Source: Gardnerella coleohominis (GTDB lineage: Bacteria; Actinomycetota; Actinomycetes; Actinomycetales; Bifidobacteriaceae). Taken from it: a stretch of DNA of 64,000 bases. Position numbers and translations under genes: made by a program. How positions within the stretch are numbered: position 1 is the first letter of the stretch; each line of letters starts with the position of its first letter. The DNA is taken from contig NZ_MNLH01000001.1 of NCBI RefSeq assembly GCF_002896555.1, forward strand, positions 62,001 through 126,000. Direction: 5' to 3'. The notes below the pieces were generated by a model. It ran no database searches, was not told where the DNA came from, and saw only the letters and a program-made list of their open reading frames with translations. Positions 25,642-54,508 of this stretch are shown here, piece after piece.

Positions 25642-27534
25642 TTATTTCTTTACTATTAAAAGACTTTCATTATTCCTTTTAATAACTCCGTTTATTTCTA
25701 ATAATGTGATTATTCCTGAAAATTCAGCTATAGATGGGATATTTATAGAAGACACGGATGCTGTGCCGGCTGTGTTATTTGTGTTAGCCGTGTTATTTGT
25801 GTTAGCTGTGTTATTCGTGTTAGCCGTGTTATTTGTGCTGGATGTGTTAGTTGTGTTAGATGTGTTATCTGAAATATTCTTTGTTTTGCATAATCTTGAA
25901 TCCTTTTTTATTATTTCAACGGTTGCGTTGTAAACTGCATCCATAGTAGTTGTTATGCGCTGTTTTCTACATATTGCAATACCTTTTAATATGTATTTTT
26001 GCAATAAATTATAAGAGGATGAGTCTGCGCTATTTTCATAATTTGATTCTGAATTTTCTGATAACTTGTTTGAATCTAATGTGTTTCTATTTAATTCCTC
26101 GTCTGCTTTCTTGTCTTGGACATCAGTTTGTTTTGGCATCGCGTGCTTGGTTGGATATATAGATTCAATGTCTGAAAATGAGCAAATCATAATAGCTTTT
26201 CCATCATGAATTAGCTCGTTGCATCCAGTGTTATGAGGACTTGTGATATCTCCAGGTACTGCATACAATTCACGATTTAAATTAGATGCCCATAATGCAG
26301 TGTTAAGCGCTCCAGATCTGATTCGAGCTTGAGCGACTATTACTTTTGAAGATAAAGCTGCAATAATACGATTTCTTATCAAAAATCGTCTTGCTATAGG
26401 AGTTGTATTTGGGCATAATTCGCTAATGCAAGCGCCACCATTATTAATTATTTGCTTAAACAGGGTTTCGTTTGAGTGAGGTCCTTTATTGTTAAGACCT
26501 CCTGCGAATACTGCAACAGTGCAACCTGAAGTAGTGTTGTTTGATTCGGTAACACTTCGAGCGTCTAATGAACCCCAATGTGCTGCAGCATCAATTCCCA
26601 TAGCTCCACCAGAAATCACTGTATGTCCTTTTAAGGAGCTGTCATAAGCTATTCTTCCGGCTATTTCGCGACCGTAGTCGTCGCATCCTCTTGATCCAAC
26701 AATAGCTATAGGTTTTTTGCATTGAATTAATGCTTCAGGATTTCCGAGTCCCCATAAGCATAAAGGTGGTGCCCATTGTCCGTGTAATGCTAAATCTTGA
26801 AGCTGATTTGGCCAGTATTTGCTGTTCGGTGCAATAATCCATTGGGAGCCTCCAACAGTAAACCATGAAATTAATTTCTGTACATCCCATGAAGGCAAAT
26901 GACTTAATCTCATGCACCAGCGTATAACTGAACGGTGTAATGTAATTAGCGATTTAGAATTATTCGCATTAGCGTACCCCCAGGATATAAGCCCTTGATG
27001 GAAGTATTGTTCTAAAATCTTTAGATGAGGATTGCCTTCTATCGATTTAATAAGACGATATTCTGCTGTTTGCTTTTTGTAATAATCATCGTCTTTAATA
27101 ATTTCAGATTCGTTTTCTTTTGTGCTCAATTCATTTTCATAGTGATTCGTATTTTCAACGTACGTATTTTCAACATCCGTTTCAACGCTTGTATTTTCAA
27201 CGTCTGTATTTTTCTCGTCTAATAGTAATTCCAATTGCATGTTTTCGTTTTTGCCAATGGCATTGTACTTTTCGCATAAAATCACTGTAAGCATACGTAA
27301 TTTTTGCACTATTGAAGAAGCGTTTGGCGCTCCAAGAATAAGCGTGTACATGATTGCGTCGGCACCATCTAAGCAGAATGTCAATATTGCTCTTGATAGT
27401 GTCTCTGCATCAAGAATAAAAAGGCTATTATCGTTTTGATTGTTAGTTTGATTTTTTACTTTAATATTTATATTTTCCATATCTTCCACATTTTCCACAT
27501 TTCTAATGTTTTCTGCATTTATCGAATTTCCCAA
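25642..27534 (-). CDS. dprA: DNA-processing protein DprA (Smf)
   Basis: DprA loads RecA on incoming single strands during transformation. The Rossmann-like core is clear from about residue 240 to 460: YWPNQLQDLALHG, IAIVGSRGCDDYGREIAGRIA, VISGGAMGIDAAAHWG, TVAVFAGGLN, PIARRFLIRNRIIAALS, SGALNTALWAS and YAVPGDITSPHNTGCNELI. At 630 residues it is far longer than the usual 290–400. The N-terminus has a repeat-rich stretch (VENT units) and the C-terminus an Asn/Thr repeat before a short conserved end. The start is TTG 27534, preceded by GAGAA inside the comM stop region; a later ATG is possible. It lies 13 bases after comM. Confidence 0.9.
   Translation of the reverse strand: MGNSINAENIRNVENVEDMENINIKVKNQTNNQNDNSLFILDAETLSRAILTFCLDGADAIMYTLILGAPNASSIVQKLRMLTVILCEKYNAIGKNENMQLELLLDEKNTDVENTSVETDVENTYVENTNHYENELSTKENESEIIKDDDYYKKQTAEYRLIKSIEGNPHLKILEQYFHQGLISWGYANANNSKSLITLHRSVIRWCMRLSHLPSWDVQKLISWFTVGGSQWIIAPNSKYWPNQLQDLALHGQWAPPLCLWGLGNPEALIQCKKPIAIVGSRGCDDYGREIAGRIAYDSSLKGHTVISGGAMGIDAAAHWGSLDARSVTESNNTTSGCTVAVFAGGLNNKGPHSNETLFKQIINNGGACISELCPNTTPIARRFLIRNRIIAALSSKVIVAQARIRSGALNTALWASNLNRELYAVPGDITSPHNTGCNELIHDGKAIMICSFSDIESIYPTKHAMPKQTDVQDKKADEELNRNTLDSNKLSENSESNYENSADSSSYNLLQKYILKGIAICRKQRITTTMDAVYNATVEIIKKDSRLCKTKNISDNTSNTTNTSSTNNTANTNNTANTNNTANTNNTAGTASVSSINIPSIAEFSGIITLLEINGVIKRNNESLLIVKK
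25772..25870 (-). repeat. 18-bp tandem repeat inside dprA
   Basis: On the plus strand the unit GTGTTATTTGTGTTAGCC starts at 25772, 25790, 25808, 25826 and 25844, with growing divergence, and a half copy at 25862. On the coding strand it gives alternating Asn/Thr with Ala (ANTNNT type). Frame is kept. Confidence 0.9.
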
Positions 27535-46828: not shown

Positions 46829-47893
46829 TTATACAAAGAAGATTTTTGCAGCTGCACATGCAAGAATTACCAACACAATAGACGCTAAGAAACTTGCTGC
46901 GAAAGCTGCGCGACCCTTCTTGAAAATAACCTTGAAGTTAACGTTAATTCCAAGAGCGGCCATTGCCATGCCAAGGAAAACGTATCCTGCTGCTACAAGA
47001 GTTGTTGTGTGTGCTGTTATGAAAGGCACGTAAGTTCCAATAACAGATGCTGCAATAAAGCCAAGCATAAACCATGGGAAGCTAATCTTATGCTTTCCGC
47101 CATTTTCAACTTTGCTATGACGCGCATTCCACCAAATTGCAATAAAGATGGAAGCGGGAACAAGCATAAGAACTCTAGCAAGCTTCATAATTGTTGCAAC
47201 ATGGATATTATTGAATGCTCCACCAGCTGCAACAGCATGTGCGATTTCGTGAAGAGATGCTCCAGCTGTAATGCAAAGCTGCTGCGTGCTCATACCAAAG
47301 TGAGGAAGAATGAAGATTTCAGCAAGAGCGTAAATAGTGCCCATAATTGCAACTGTTGCAACGGCCATAACTTCGTTCTGCTCTTTCTCGTCTTCCTCTT
47401 CTGGAAGAACTGGCATTGATCCGGAAAGACCCATAACTGCTGCGGCTCCACAAATACTTGTGCCGCCTGCAGTTAGCATTGCAAGCTGAGGATTTACTTT
47501 CAGAAGTTTAGCAATGGTATAAGTTATGCAGACCATTACTGCAACTAACACAGCTGCAATAGGCAAGCACTTAATGCCCTCGGTAAACAAATCGTGCAAA
47601 TTCAGATTAAAGCCGAGAAGAATAATACCAAGACGAAGAAGCTTGTTTGCAATCAAACCAGCAGCGCTTTTAACGCCTGCTCGTCGTAAATCATTATTCT
47701 TTTTGTATGCGTGCAATGGCAGCTGCAGAGCCATGCCAACAAGCAACGCAATAATAAGAGCACCAAGTAATTTGAAACCTGGGTATTGTTTAAGCCAGCT
47801 GCCAATAAAGGAAGCTAGAAGTGTCAATACAGCGATAAGAGCCATATCGATGGTGCAGATTTTCTTTTTCCATGTATCAAAGAAATTAACCAT
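46829..47893 (-). CDS. YeiH/UPF0324 family membrane protein (putative sulfate exporter family)
   Basis: A 354-residue protein with about ten hydrophobic segments. LLRLGIILLGFNLNLHDL, GGTSICGAAAVMG, SLHEIAHAVAAGGAF and FLGMAMAALGINVNFK are family landmarks. The family name rests on weak evidence of sulfate or sulfite export; the real substrate is not settled. A charged cytosolic loop PEEEDEKEQNEV lies in the middle. It is its own unit on the minus strand, with a 540-base repeat-bearing gap upstream. Confidence 0.87.
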   Translation of the reverse strand: MVNFFDTWKKKICTIDMALIAVLTLLASFIGSWLKQYPGFKLLGALIIALLVGMALQLPLHAYKKNNDLRRAGVKSAAGLIANKLLRLGIILLGFNLNLHDLFTEGIKCLPIAAVLVAVMVCITYTIAKLLKVNPQLAMLTAGGTSICGAAAVMGLSGSMPVLPEEEDEKEQNEVMAVATVAIMGTIYALAEIFILPHFGMSTQQLCITAGASLHEIAHAVAAGGAFNNIHVATIMKLARVLMLVPASIFIAIWWNARHSKVENGGKHKISFPWFMLGFIAASVIGTYVPFITAHTTTLVAAGYVFLGMAMAALGINVNFKVIFKKGRAAFAASFLASIVLVILACAAAKIFFV

Positions 47894-48025
47894 TTAGCTC
47901 ATTATTCTCTCATAATCGGACAAAAGCGAACAAAAATTAAATATTTAGCTAATGATTATGCATTTTTGCTGGAATTATGCGCGACATGCTGAATGTAAAA
48001 ATCACATAATCGAACATAATAACTC

Positions 48026-48070
48026 AGAATCTCAAATCTCTGTCTTGTGAATAGCAAATCAAGTCGTCGC
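48026..48070. repeat. CTCAAATC intergenic repeat, copy B
   Basis: AGAATCTCAAATCTCTGTC, then TTGTGAATAGCAAATCAAGTCGTC. It flanks the tandem array on its left side, in the same direction as copies A and C. Confidence 0.7.
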
Positions 48071-48071
48071 G

Positions 48072-48223
48072 CTTAATTTTGTGGACTTAGAGGGTACATA
48101 AGTAAACAAAATCGGGGTAGGGTTCTTGGTTTTGTTTACTTAGAGTGCGTGTTGGTAAACAAAATCGGGGTAGGATTCTTGGTTTTGTTTACTTAGAGGG
48201 TACATAAGTAAACAAAATCGGGG
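48072..48223. repeat. Tandem array of a 53-bp unit with inverted arms
   Basis: GTAAACAAAATCGGGG starts at 48102, 48155 and 48208, exactly 53 bases apart. Each full unit has arms GTAAACAAAA and TTTTGTTTAC around a G-rich centre GGGGTAGG. The link TTAGAGGGTACATAA also makes a second palindrome across unit borders (TTTTGTTTACTTA with TAAGTAAACAAAA). A degenerate half unit stands at the left end. Nothing in it codes for protein. Confidence 0.92.
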
Positions 48224-48233
48224 AAATGCATGG

Positions 48234-48280
48234 GCGAAAAACTCAAATCGCTGCCTAATTGATAGAAAAGCAAGTTAGTC
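48234..48280. repeat. CTCAAATC intergenic repeat, copy C
   Basis: GCGAAAAACTCAAATCGCTG, then CCTAATTGATAGAAAAGCAAG. It closes the tandem array on the right, as a direct repeat of copy B. Confidence 0.7.
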
Positions 48281-48434
48281 CAAGCAACACTATGATTTTT
48301 AAGCTATATACGTTAGAATGAAGATTTGGCTACAAAGCTGTTGCGCAAAGGAATTTTTGGTTCTGTTTTAATTGCGCTCGGACTATTGGCTTTTAAAAGC
48401 AAAAAAGGGATGCTATTTAGAGCTAGGAGAGAAT

Positions 48435-49721
48435 ATGAGTTTATTTACTTGGAAGCTTCACGGTAATGGCAAAACGTTAAGGCCTGGTGAAGTTGTAGAG
48501 CCAGACGAACGTCTAACTTGGACTCGTACTGCTGGTATTGGTGCTCAGCATGTTATTGCAATGTTTGGCGCTACGTTCTTGGTGCCTATTCTTACAGGCT
48601 TTGATCCATCAACAACATTAATGTTCACTGCTATTTCTACGGCACTGTTCTTACTTATTAACGCAAATAAGCTTCCTAGTTATTTAGGAAGCTCTTTTGG
48701 TCTTATAGCACCTGTTATGGCTGTAACAACAGCTCATAAAGGTATTGCAGTTGCAAGCTTCGGCATTATGTGCACAGGTTTGCTTCTTGCTCTTATCGGT
48801 GTGCTTGTGCATTTTGCAGGAGCTAAGTGGATTGACATTATTATGCCGCCTGTTGTAAACGGTGCAATCGTTGCAATTATCGGTTTTAATTTGGGACCTG
48901 CAGTTTGGGCTAACTTCCAGAAAGCTCCAGATACAGCGCTTGTAACATTAGTTGCTGTAATGCTTATTGCTGTAGTTTTCCGCGGTCTTCTTGGTCGTTT
49001 GAATATTCTTTTAGGTGTTCTTGTTGGTTACGCATACGCGTGTTTCCATGGGCAAGTTGATTTCAAAAAGATTGAGGAAGCTTCTTGGATTGGTTTCCCT
49101 AAATTCCACACTCCACAAATTGATTTCTCTGTTCTGCTCATGTTCTTGCCAGTAGTGCTTGTTCTTATTGCAGAAAATGTCGGTCACGTAAAGTCTGTAT
49201 CTCAAATGACTGGTCGCGACTATGACTCTAAGATTGGAACCGCATTATTTGCAGATGGCTTTGGTACAGCTATTGCAGGTTTGTTTGGCGGTTGCGGTAC
49301 CACTACGTACGGTGAAAATATTGGCGTTATGGCTGCAACAAAGGTTTATTCCACTGCCGCTTATTGGTGTGCTGCAGCGTTTGCGTTCATCTTAAGCCTT
49401 TGCCCGAAGTTTGGTGCAATTGTGAACTCAATTCCAGCTGGTGTTCTTGGTGGCGTAACAACTTTGCTTTACGGCATGATTGGCATGATTGGCGTAAGAA
49501 TTTGGGTTGAAAACAAAGTGAACTTCGACAAGCCAGTGAATATTATGATTGCTGCAATCGTTATGATTATTGGCATTGCTAACTTCCAGTTTGCAGTTTC
49601 TGGTATTCAGTTCAACGGCATTGCAATTGGAACCGTTGTGGTGTTGGTTGTGTACCACTTACTGAAGGTTATTGGTAAGCTTACTGGCACGATTGCTAAA
49701 AACGATCCAGATATTGCTTAA
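48435..49721 (+). CDS. Uracil permease (UraA-type, NCS2 family)
   Basis: Imports uracil with protons across the membrane. The 428-residue protein has about 14 hydrophobic segments. QHVIAMFGATFLVPILTGFDPST near the start, then IAENVGHVKSVSQMTGRD and GGCGTTTYGENIGVMAATKVYS are the conserved substrate and helix-break regions, closer to uracil than xanthine carriers. ATG 48435 follows AGGAGAG; the longer open frame upstream (21 codons) is not supported. Confidence 0.92.
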   Translation: MSLFTWKLHGNGKTLRPGEVVEPDERLTWTRTAGIGAQHVIAMFGATFLVPILTGFDPSTTLMFTAISTALFLLINANKLPSYLGSSFGLIAPVMAVTTAHKGIAVASFGIMCTGLLLALIGVLVHFAGAKWIDIIMPPVVNGAIVAIIGFNLGPAVWANFQKAPDTALVTLVAVMLIAVVFRGLLGRLNILLGVLVGYAYACFHGQVDFKKIEEASWIGFPKFHTPQIDFSVLLMFLPVVLVLIAENVGHVKSVSQMTGRDYDSKIGTALFADGFGTAIAGLFGGCGTTTYGENIGVMAATKVYSTAAYWCAAAFAFILSLCPKFGAIVNSIPAGVLGGVTTLLYGMIGMIGVRIWVENKVNFDKPVNIMIAAIVMIIGIANFQFAVSGIQFNGIAIGTVVVLVVYHLLKVIGKLTGTIAKNDPDIA

Positions 49722-51064: not shown

Positions 51065-54000
51065 TTGAATCAAAAGTATACTTGTTCTATGGATAAGATT
51101 ATTTTAGACATAATTATTCTGATTATGTGGACAGGTGTTGGCTCTATATTGGTGAGCAAATCTAAGGGGAAGAAAAAGAATCAGAATAATAAAAATGTTA
51201 AAAATAAAAACTTTAATTATAAGAACATTTTTAATAATCTTGTAAATGGTGACAGTGAAGTTAAAGATTTATTTAAAAGTTTTCTAAAGAATAAAGAAAA
51301 TGATATGAATTATGAAAATAACGATATGAACTACGAAAATAACGAAAGCAATGGAAGCTACGAAAATGATGGAGGCTACGAAAGTAGCAAGGAGAGCAAT
51401 ATGGAGAGCAATAAGTTTATGGTAACCGATTCCATTAAAGTAAATAAAATTATTGAAATATCTAAAAAGTGGCGTTGGATTCTTGCAATTTTAGTTGTAA
51501 TCCTATGTTTTGCTGGAGCTGCAATATTTGGTCTTGCAAACTTTATAACTGACTGCATGTGGTATTCTCAGCTTGGATTCGAGAGCGTAATTTGGATTCA
51601 GTTAGGCGCAAAAATCGGCGTTTGGGTGCTTTATGCAATATTAATGTCTGCTTTTGGATACTTGTCTGCAGCTTTGGCAATAAAAGCGCGTCCAAGCAAT
51701 GCGGATGGAACTTATATTCGAATTAAAGGCAATGTTATCGATTTAAAGCAGGGAATTAGTTCAAAGCTTGCTTTGCATGTTGCGGGAATTTTTTCATTGA
51801 TTGTAGGCGCAGTATTTGGATTTAAATTCTACAATCATTGGGCGCAAATTTTGTTAATGTTTAACGCTCAACCTTTTGGTATTAAAGATCCGCAATTTGG
51901 AATTGACAATGGGTTCTACGTATTTGTGCTTCCTGGATTAAGGTTATTTATAAGCGCATTTGTGCTTTTATTGGTAATATCTCTTGTTTTCTCTATTATT
52001 ACCCATGTTCTTATGGGAGCAATTCGTTTTAGTATGCCTATCGACGGTAAAGGCATATTCAGCATTACAAAACGAGCACGTAGACAAATTTCTGTATGGT
52101 TTATGCTTGTGATTTTGACGTGGGCACTTGAACAGATTTTAGACATGTTCGCTTTAGTAACTCTTGATGGCCCTAGAATTACAGGCGGTTCATACACTGA
52201 TATGAATGCTGGCGTTCCTGGAAGCATAGCAATGGCAGTGATCACGGTGTTAGTTGGGTCTGTTATTGCATTTTGGTTTATGAAATCTCATGCTTTATCT
52301 GTAGAAGCACCAATTTCAGTGCGTTTTAAAACCGCAATTAAGGCATGGAAAACACCAGTTATTGCTTTAACTTTTATTATTGTTTGCTCGGTTGTTATAT
52401 CTTTTGCTTGGCCAGCTCTTTTACAGCGATTTAAGGTTGCACCTAATGCGCAAGAGTTGGAAGCTACTTATATTCAGAGGAATATTGAGGCCACTAAATT
52501 TGCTTATGGTTTAAATAATGTAAAGAAAGAATCGTATAACGCTACTTCTGAAGGAAAATCTGGAGCTTTAGCAAAAGAAGCTGAATCTACTGCGCAAATT
52601 CGTCTTCTAGATCCTCAAGTTACTTCTCCAACTTTCCGTCAATTGCAGCAATCTAAGCAATACTATACTTTTGCAGATACGCTTTCAGTTGATAAATACG
52701 ATATTGACGGTGTAAGTCAAGATACGGTTATTGCTGCTCGCGAGCTTGATTTAGCTGGCAATGATAATCGAAACTGGGTTAATGATCATACTGTTTATAC
52801 GCATGGCTATGGAATTGTTGCAGCTTATGGAAATAAAGTGACGTCAGATGGCCAGCCTCAATTTATGGAGTATGGTATTCCTACTCAAGGAAAGCTTACT
52901 AAGTCACAGAATTATGAGCCACGTATTTACTTCTCGCCAAATGCTCCTGAATATTCTATTGTTGGATCTCCAAAAGGTACTGCTCCATGGGAATTTGATT
53001 ATCCAACTGGATCTCAAGGTGCTTTAACTACTTTCAAGGGTAATGGTGGTCCAAGCGTAGGTAACTTCTTCTCTAGGCTTTTACATGCAGTTAGATTTGA
53101 GTCAGATCAGATTCTTTTCTCTGACCGCGTAACGCCGGATTCGCAGATTTTGTACGATCGCGATCCTAAAACACGCGTATCCAAAGTTGCTCCTTACTTA
53201 ACTTTGGACGGTAGAGTTTATCCTGCTGTTGTTGATGGACGTGTTAAGTGGATTGTTGATGGATATACTACTTCCGCTTCTTACCCGTATTCTCAGATGA
53301 CTGATTTTGGTAAGATAACTCAAGATTCCACAACAACAACTTCTCATTCTATTAAGGGATTGACTAATCAACGAGCAAATTACATTCGCAATTCTGTAAA
53401 AGCTACAGTTGATGCTTATGATGGTTCTGTTGATTTGTATGTGTGGGATACAAAAGACCCTGTGATTAAAGCATGGCGTTCAATTTTCCCTGGTCACTAT
53501 CACGATATTTCTAAGATTTCTGGTGACTTGATGAAGCATTTGCGTTATCCAGAAAGCTTGTTTAAAGTTCAACGCTATTTGCTTGCAAAGTATCATGTGG
53601 ATACAGCAAGCCAATTCTTCTCTGGAGAAGATTTTTGGCAAACCCCTGTGGATCCTACTGAATCTCAGAAAGCACAAAAAGAAGATATTTTGCAACCTCC
53701 ATATTATTTGACTTTGCAAACTGGAGATGCAAAGAAACCAGTGTTTTCGCTTGTTTCTACTTATATTCCAGCTGGTAAAATCACGCGTGAAATATTGACT
53801 GGTTTCTTGTCTGTTGATTCTGATGCTGGGGATACTCCTGGAAAGATTGGTCCGAATTACGGTAAGCTTCGTTTGCAGGAATTGCCTAAAGTTTCTAATG
53901 TTCCAGGACCTGGTCAAGCTCAAAATAATTTCAACGCTAATGCGAATGTTTCTAAAGAGTTGAATTTGCTTGAATCTGGTTCAACGAAAGTTAAGCGTGG

Positions 54001-54508
54001 AAACTTGCTAACTTTGCCTCTTGGTGGAGGGCTTGTTTACGTAGAGCCTGTTTACGTGCAGTCAAGCGGATCTACAAGTTATCCTTTGTTAAAGAAGGTT
54101 TTGGTTGCGTTTGGAGATCAAGTTGGATTTGCGGATACATTAGATGAAGCTCTAGATCAAGTATTTGGAGGCGATTCTGGTGCTTTAGCTGGAGATGCTT
54201 CAAATAATTCTGCAGCTTCTAAGGATGCGAAGGATTCTAAGGATTCTAAGGATCATGCTTCTAAGGATGCGAAGGATTCTGCTTCTAAGGATTCTAAGGA
54301 TAACTCTAATAATTCAGAATCTAAGAATGCTGTGAAAAACAGTTCTATGAGTACCAAAGCTAAAGAGGCGCTTAAGCGTGCAGCTAAAGCTTTGAAGGAT
54401 TCTGATTCTGCTATGCGCTCAGGTAATTGGGAAGCTTATGGAAAAGCTCAAAAAGAGTTAAGCGACGCAATTAATGAGGCTATTCAAGAAGAATCTAAAG
54501 GTAAATAA
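51065..54508 (+). CDS. UPF0182 family membrane protein
   Basis: A large conserved actinobacterial membrane protein of unknown role. Up to 1147 residues: a poorly conserved head, then membrane segments with KKWRWILAILVVI, TDCMWYSQLGFESVIWIQLGAK and PFGIKDPQFGIDNGFYVFVLPGL. A big outer domain follows (about 460–1040), with NWVNDHTVYTHGYG and RIYFSPNAPEYSIVG. It ends in a Lys/Asp/Ser repeat tail (SKDAKD units) and a helical end. The start is unsure: TTG 51065 opens the frame, but the best ribosome site, AAGGAGAG, precedes ATG 51401. The head between them has MNYENN repeats. It directly follows azlD. Confidence 0.85.
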   Translation: MNQKYTCSMDKIILDIIILIMWTGVGSILVSKSKGKKKNQNNKNVKNKNFNYKNIFNNLVNGDSEVKDLFKSFLKNKENDMNYENNDMNYENNESNGSYENDGGYESSKESNMESNKFMVTDSIKVNKIIEISKKWRWILAILVVILCFAGAAIFGLANFITDCMWYSQLGFESVIWIQLGAKIGVWVLYAILMSAFGYLSAALAIKARPSNADGTYIRIKGNVIDLKQGISSKLALHVAGIFSLIVGAVFGFKFYNHWAQILLMFNAQPFGIKDPQFGIDNGFYVFVLPGLRLFISAFVLLLVISLVFSIITHVLMGAIRFSMPIDGKGIFSITKRARRQISVWFMLVILTWALEQILDMFALVTLDGPRITGGSYTDMNAGVPGSIAMAVITVLVGSVIAFWFMKSHALSVEAPISVRFKTAIKAWKTPVIALTFIIVCSVVISFAWPALLQRFKVAPNAQELEATYIQRNIEATKFAYGLNNVKKESYNATSEGKSGALAKEAESTAQIRLLDPQVTSPTFRQLQQSKQYYTFADTLSVDKYDIDGVSQDTVIAARELDLAGNDNRNWVNDHTVYTHGYGIVAAYGNKVTSDGQPQFMEYGIPTQGKLTKSQNYEPRIYFSPNAPEYSIVGSPKGTAPWEFDYPTGSQGALTTFKGNGGPSVGNFFSRLLHAVRFESDQILFSDRVTPDSQILYDRDPKTRVSKVAPYLTLDGRVYPAVVDGRVKWIVDGYTTSASYPYSQMTDFGKITQDSTTTTSHSIKGLTNQRANYIRNSVKATVDAYDGSVDLYVWDTKDPVIKAWRSIFPGHYHDISKISGDLMKHLRYPESLFKVQRYLLAKYHVDTASQFFSGEDFWQTPVDPTESQKAQKEDILQPPYYLTLQTGDAKKPVFSLVSTYIPAGKITREILTGFLSVDSDAGDTPGKIGPNYGKLRLQELPKVSNVPGPGQAQNNFNANANVSKELNLLESGSTKVKRGNLLTLPLGGGLVYVEPVYVQSSGSTSYPLLKKVLVAFGDQVGFADTLDEALDQVFGGDSGALAGDASNNSAASKDAKDSKDSKDHASKDAKDSASKDSKDNSNNSESKNAVKNSSMSTKAKEALKRAAKALKDSDSAMRSGNWEAYGKAQKELSDAINEAIQEESKGK

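Follow-up and report, generated by a model that had tools for sequence, protein, structure and literature searches.

Between a YeiH-like gene and the divergent uracil permease gene of Gardnerella coleohominis lies a short non-coding array of palindromes, and the question is whether it serves one of these two genes or belongs to something larger. It was first pointed out in a reading made from the sequence alone, which described a 53-bp tandem unit framed by direct repeats and proposed a multi-site operator for either neighbour, a small non-autonomous mobile element or a structured RNA. The locus is contained in a stretch of 64,000 nucleotides (the window, to which the coordinates below refer), taken from a draft genome (G000) whose 47 contigs add up to 1,667,947 bases. 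Its features are as follows.

46829-47893, minus strand: left neighbour gene, YeiH-like (the name given by the sequence-only reading); the PF03601 (Cons_hypoth698) match is presumed to be its own.
48028-48063, plus strand: left, diverged copy of the B block, containing CTCAAATC at 48031 (by eye).
48063-48075, plus strand: left junction motif GTCGTCGCGCTTA, common to the left ends of several other arrays (by eye).
48077-48086, minus strand: arm TTTTGTGGAC, of the GTCCAC type, at the array edge.
48087-48101: outer loop 1, 15 nt.
48102-48111, plus strand: arm GTAAACAAAA.
48112-48129: inner loop 1, 18 nt, TCGGGGTAGGGTTCTTGG.
48130-48139, minus strand: arm TTTTGTTTAC.
48140-48154: outer loop 2, 15 nt.
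48155-48164, plus strand: arm GTAAACAAAA.
48165-48182: inner loop 2, 18 nt, TCGGGGTAGGATTCTTGG.
48183-48192, minus strand: arm TTTTGTTTAC.
48193-48207: outer loop 3, 15 nt, TTAGAGGGTACATAA; the kind of loop that holds an IS3-family element in other arrays.
48208-48217, plus strand: arm GTAAACAAAA; the inner loop after it is truncated (TCGGGG).
48232-48274, plus strand: right copy of the B block, GGGCGAAAAACTCAAATCGCTGCCTAATTGATAGAAAAGCAAG, with CTCAAATC at 48242; one of 29 copies (G000:C1:110245-110271).
48275-48290, plus strand: likely fragment of another mosaic module, compare CTAGACCAAGCAACACCC beside another array (by eye).
48435-49721, plus strand: right neighbour gene, uracil/xanthine permease family; the PF00860 match is presumed to be its own.

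The array core (48077-48217) consists of six arms that alternate in orientation, with loops of 15, 18, 15, 18 and 15 nt between them. The arms are GTAAACAAAA or its reverse complement, the leftmost being a GTGGAC variant at 48077, which extends the core beyond the three starts originally noticed. These starts, defined by GTAAACAAAATCGGGG, do lie 53 bases apart, at 48102, 48155 and 48208; even with 3 mismatches allowed, the window has no further match, and the shuffle control gave a mean of 0.51 matches, with at least three in only 1 of 100 shuffles. Tandem Repeats Finder reports the region 48077-48223 with period 53, 2.8 copies and a score of 224, the highest of 49 rows. Two other tandem repeats of the window, at 25769-25868 and 54217-54301, are of 9/18 and 9/24 bp, the latter lying within the 3' portion of a large ORF (51065-54508) that contains Ser/Lys/Asp-rich repeats.

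Both palindromes described in the sequence-only reading are present, the inner one as arm-18 nt-arm and the outer one as arm-15 nt-arm. The direct-repeat frame was also found, as CTCAAATC on the same strand at 48031 and 48242; the whole window contains this sequence four times on the plus and twice on the minus strand, the framing pair included. The 53-bp unit holds as a period, but not as a simple direct repeat, since the repeated element is a half-unit of 26.5 bp in alternating orientation. That the window copy is neither coding nor a CRISPR is agreed, identical repeats with unique spacers being absent. As for the permease gene, whose product is 97% identical to the Gardnerella swidsinskii permease, the ORF list begins at TTG 48372, and relatives align from the ATG at 48435.

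The array is not confined to this place, as it would be if it were the local duplication allowed for at the outset: BLAST against its own genome returned 70 matches (overlapping ones and both strands counted). From 40 clusters, 39 arrays were retained for analysis; one (C1:425554) was dropped as a single fuzzy pair with a 14-nt gap, some array ends were trimmed by hand, and an additional outer palindrome (C20:21761, L188) lies outside the 39. Genome-wide, the inner palindrome, searched as GTMMACAAA-N20-TTTGTKKAC, occurs 74 times and the perfect outer palindrome, GTKKACTTA-N9-TAAGTMMAC, 42 times, with no matches for the reversed-pattern control. The stretches fetched contain 208 exact arms; the 74 inner palindromes may be set against a benchmark of more than 100 copies per genome for REP/BIME sequences. 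The counts by exact pattern are lower bounds, because diverged copies escape such a search.

The search was extended to 112 genomes of the GTDB genus, which covers both Bifidobacterium and Gardnerella. Six of them have the inner pattern (74 in G000, 16 in G009, 15 in G046 and one each in G044, G132 and G133) and the other 106 lack it, several genomes of 1.5-1.7 Mb among these; the five positive genomes other than G000 are small and were taken as Gardnerella. The outer pattern was found in five (G000 42, G046 7, G022 2, G009 1, G133 1); of the two G022 matches (L159 and L163), the latter has no array around it. Among 396 genomes sampled from the order, a set which does not include the other positive genomes, the inner pattern was confined to G000 (0 of the 395 others), and BLAST of the G000 array found nothing in five of eight relatives. 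The geometry recurs, with different loops and arms, in five further genomes. The array is real and one member of a dispersed family rather than a local feature, and this family is seen only in one corner of the genus. Among the matches listed for open-licence papers on Gardnerella and Bifidobacterium repeats, titles and abstract openings do not describe it. A phage or plasmid origin was rejected, neither collection giving a blastn match; seven viral contigs contain the exact 16-mer once each, without an array recognisable by eye, and were taken as chance.

The geometry of the family is unusually regular. Arms (GTMMACAAA) alternate in orientation and are separated by loops of 18 and 15 nt. Among G000 gaps not selected on distance, the outer gap is 15 nt in 73 of 74 cases and the inner gap, measured as 20 nt between exact 9-mer arms, is kept in 74 of 75. 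At loci not chosen on the outer gap, this is 15 nt in 18/18 cases for G046 and 10/11 for G009; the inner gap is 20 nt in 15/15 and 16/16, values which are not independent, because most of these loci were found with that gap. Looser arms add five inner gaps (12, 12, 13, 14 and 17) and one outer gap (19) that depart from the rule. Loop sequences vary at the same time: outer loops show a mean pairwise difference of 0.436 (46 distinct out of 78) and inner loops of 0.220 (39 distinct out of 80), and a very different inner loop in G046, such as GCGCGCATACTTTCTCGT, has the same length.

Conservation extends beyond the 9-mer used in the search. In three species, C is found at +11 in 84-96% and G at +14 in 96-98% of the arms. 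The bases before the arm are TAA in most G000 arms (89, 79 and 77%), AA in 98% of those of G046, and neither in G009. Arms were also predicted only from neighbours 53 bp apart. The 109 G000 arms obtained in this way comprise 87 GTAAACAAA, 10 GTCCACAAA, 7 GTACACAAA and 5 others, positions 3-4 being always A or C and never G or T; in G046 (n=23) these positions are CC or AC, and in G009 (n=17) there are 8 GTAAACAAA and 1 GTCCACAAA, the rest being changed, with G at position 3 in three of them. The elementary unit is shown to be a half-site, GTMMACAAA-nnCnnG, repeated in alternating orientation at near-constant spacing, with 53 bp per pair of half-sites.

Four pairs of loci carry flanks common to arrays of two species. 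In one pair both flanks match (91% and 83%) and an array is present in both genomes, with GTCCAC/GTGGAC arms (CC/CC) in G046 and GTAAAC/GTTTAC arms (AA/AA) in G009. A second pair, between G009 and G000, is likewise matched on either side (68% and 78%) and differs in the number of units; the remaining two have one matching flank only. On the simplest reading of these alignments, some arrays would predate the species split and both inverted arms would have changed together; independent arrival of arrays at the same spot is an alternative that could also account for them. Since some arrays share flanks across species, the family appears to be partly old and static.

A function in the host chromosome could also be built on these features. 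The arrays would then be multi-site platforms for a nucleoid or chromosome-organising protein, maintained by host selection, their spread being secondary. The near-constant spacing, the conservation of the half-site and the flanks common to two species at four locus pairs are consistent with this, and 53 bp would correspond to about five helical turns. Against it, the number of inner palindromes falls from 74 to 1 among the six positive genomes and is zero in the 106 others of the genus, and no such protein was identified in this analysis. We regard this explanation as unlikely.

At the RNA level, an array could terminate or attenuate the transcript in which it lies, or offer a site to RNase. 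The window array does fold well: compared with dinucleotide shuffles, its z-score is -9.19 as RNA and -6.15 as DNA, and none of 200 shuffles was as stable in either case. However, a DNA palindrome gives the same fold, and the arms that would pair in a hairpin do not covary within G000, where matching pairs number 57 of 81 for inner palindromes (54.5 expected) and 45 of 78 for outer ones (44.3 expected). This lack of covariation favours arms that are recognised in double-stranded DNA over an RNA stem. Further, Rfam gave no match above the gathering score (three microRNA models were below threshold, the best with an E value of 0.0033, and were taken as chance hairpin matches), no terminator-like site was found in 47850-48500, and 7 of the 39 arrays lie between divergent ORFs. 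The structured RNA proposed from the sequence retains its stable hairpins, but arm changes in the genome are uncompensated, and we consider this role improbable.

Several arrays outside the window contain an inserted element with a two-ORF transposase of the IS3 family (NF033516, 286.6 bits with a cut-off of 160; PF00665). The element ends in TGTACCCCTTTTTCTGGAC, which occurs 11 times genome-wide without mismatch and a twelfth time with 2 mismatches. All 11 exact ends are located within 15-nt outer loops, 10 after 9 nt of the loop and one after 10 nt, counting the terminal repeat from TGATA; the twelfth end lies outside the arrays. From five left and five right ends, five insertions with duplications of 3-4 bp can be reconstructed, each of which restores a 15-nt loop; the duplications were deduced from this pairing, in which two pairs are interchangeable. 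The eleventh exact end is a remnant. The ends of the IS3-family element are shown to lie midway along the 15-nt loop.

A related transposase, 86% identical, is present in G132, in an IS that is not in a 53-bp array and, by eye, is inside another imperfect palindrome. This IS (L174, G132:C20) lies between two copies of CAGTACGGTTTCTG, and the palindrome resembles by eye one found beside a G000 array (GACACTGGCGCAGTACG...CGTTCTGCACCAGTGTC). Beyond G132, none of the other 110 genomes yielded a transposase match at E 1e-60, so that the IS is unlikely to have spread the arrays of G009 and G046. The assembled copy on contig C40 (L130 6350-7840, corresponding to G000:C40:9359-10837) has mismatched flanking duplications; judging from the pairing of its ends with other contig ends, it may join halves of two copies, as an assembly chimera. 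Arrays C30:263 and C40:9148 have identical units and could represent a single array split in two.

Units of the same array resemble each other more than units of different arrays (mean similarity 0.799 against 0.754, the largest value in 500 label shuffles being 0.785), and for 16.9 of 58 units the nearest neighbour is in the same array, where 1.8 would be expected. Local duplication therefore contributes units, since those of one array are more alike than under shuffled labels. As the sole source, local tandem expansion was rejected, most nearest neighbours being in other arrays.

The flanks of the arrays are themselves repeats, with several kinds of module on the left and on the right of the 39 arrays (by eye). 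The B block, marked by CTCAAATC, is present in 29 copies in G000 when up to 3 mismatches are allowed, the left copy in the window not being among them, and is absent from the 111 other genomes of the genus. Two or more arms lie within 300 bases of 12 of the 29 copies; the remaining 17, with fewer than two, adjoin other repeated modules (B copies are L202-L230). No target-site duplication was found around an array. At the window locus, comparison by eye with L050, a related locus which has the YeiH-side flank in common with the window up to the array, suggests replacement rather than clean insertion, and no clean empty site, against which the terminal inverted repeats and target-site duplication of a MITE could be read, was seen there.

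A purely neutral origin would explain the arrays by tandem and dispersed duplication through recombination; no protein would be involved, and the IS would simply prefer palindromes. Such an account fits the greater likeness of units within arrays, and the position of the G132 element in a palindrome of another kind. It is hard to reconcile with the near-absence of length change beside a loop divergence of 22-44%, which would be difficult to obtain by neutrality, and with the retention of G at +14 and C at +11 and the restriction of arm positions 3-4 to A or C in G000 and G046. We give it little credence.

With regard to genomic setting, 35 of the 39 arrays overlap no ORF of at least 90 aa, and the other four overlap ORFs of 95-127 aa called by a simple ORF finder. 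Neighbouring genes are in tandem in 22 cases, convergent in 10 and divergent in 7, which resembles, without formal test, the intergenic gaps of the window in general (19, 6 and 7, respectively). The 63 flanking ORFs, from which those above 700 aa had been left out, gave 60 proteins for scanning after removal of three IS ORFs; these matched 58 Pfam families, none of them in more than two proteins (E 1e-8). PF03601 matched one of the 60, in a table that does not carry protein identity, and was taken as the YeiH-like gene; PF00860 also matched one of the 60, and its assignment to the permease is assumed.

An operator serving the uracil permease or its YeiH-like neighbour, suggested by the position between these two divergent genes, can practically be dismissed, because arrays are dispersed over 39 analysed places beside unrelated genes and none precedes the permease at eight related loci (up to 719 bases displayed, one locus being partly N-masked). 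No promoter excess was found. A local side effect of the array on the permease is possible. Six of the eight related loci (L047, L048 and L050-L053, with L053 partly masked) have a conserved, hairpin-rich permease leader, GGCATATGGGTCGGTGG...CCATCCCAGCGCTC...TTTTTT, which by eye looks attenuator-like; a variant form is present in L049 and L117, and in the window it is replaced or diverged. Rfam searches on L047, L050, L117 and L001 gave no match.

Among known systems, the closest comparison is with REP/BIME sequences, which are described as mostly extragenic palindromes with regular spacing, alternating orientation, mosaic organisation and species-specific copy number (PMC2817692). The Gardnerella arrays, being dispersed, mostly extragenic and made of alternating palindromes, agree with the family so described. 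They differ in that the arms begin with GTMMAC and, by inspection, no constant GTAG or GTGG precedes them, and in being a chain of non-palindromic half-sites which make two alternating palindromes. REPs driven by a RAYT were rejected: the Y1/RAYT transposase profile PF01797 had no match in G000 or in 13 further genome handles (probably about 10 distinct genomes), whereas the profile matched in 5 of 14 control genomes. Without a RAYT and, by inspection, without the GT(A/G)G head, the arrays were not filed as REP.

The IS insertions have a parallel in IS1397, ISKpn1 and ISPsy8, elements of the IS3 family that insert into REPs (PMC1525189). The Gardnerella element shares with those described there the two-ORF IS3-family transposase and insertion in an extragenic palindrome (PMC1525189). 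It differs in entering another family of palindromes, in an actinobacterium and at the middle of a 15-nt loop, and in having a G132 relative outside such arrays. BOX elements of Streptococcus pneumoniae, described as composite interspersed repeats in which a core unit in variable tandem number lies between modules (PMC3049150), are similar, by description only, in their composite organisation and variable tandem core. By contrast, the 39 arrays have by eye flanks of several module kinds, not the fixed boxA and boxC ends of a tandem boxB core, and their palindromes alternate at constant spacing. The MIRU repeats of Mycobacterium tuberculosis, also an actinobacterium, occupy about 40 intergenic loci with units that are about 50 bp long; they are direct repeats, not known to form the double palindrome of the Gardnerella arrays.

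Taken together, the arrays look like a BIME-like family of interspersed palindromes rather than a switch for one gene. We give a probability of roughly 60% to the reading in which the window array is a Gardnerella member of such a non-autonomous family, kept in register by a putative DNA-binding protein and used as a landing site by an IS. It draws on the dispersal and narrow range of the family, its fixed geometry beside variable loops, the bases conserved outside the 9-mer, the neighbour-predicted arms of G000, the site with CC and AA arms in two species, and the IS ends; the changed arms of G009, the departing gaps obtained with looser arms, the greater likeness of units within arrays, the four arrays that overlap ORFs and the G132 IS outside any such array count against it. 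In this scheme the arms would be read as double-stranded DNA by a trans-acting protein, either a transposase or another DNA-binding protein, which would bind pairs of half-sites on defined helical faces. The protein, or molecular drive acting through it, would hold the arms and their spacing in register while allowing different species to have different arm dinucleotides (AA, AC or CC). Copies would spread as non-autonomous elements or through recombination with their mosaic neighbours. The mobile element of the sequence-only reading finds agreement in the dispersal, the species-dependent copy number and the mosaic structure, but lacks a target-site duplication and a driver, no protein binding or moving the array having been found in this analysis. 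For the window copy itself, the best reading is an array which happens to lie beside the uracil permease leader and is not its operator.

A more specific version, which we put forward tentatively and would not yet favour, is a REP-like system without RAYT. A putative trans-acting protein would read GTMMACAAAnnCnnG in fixed head-to-head and tail-to-tail pairs, and as its specificity drifted between species, the arms of dispersed arrays would be pulled along together, from GTCCAC to GTAAAC or back. An independent IS3 element would use the same palindromes as safe landing sites.

At the level of the draft assembly, IS copies could explain several of the contig breaks, and copy number together with insertion state might conceivably be used for strain typing. 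If the proposed reading is true, the family would be a counterpart of BIMEs in an actinobacterium, one that does without a RAYT, is unusually rigid in its geometry and receives an IS, and its species-specific arm types at dispersed sites would offer a testable case of coevolution between repeat and protein in a genus of the human vagina.
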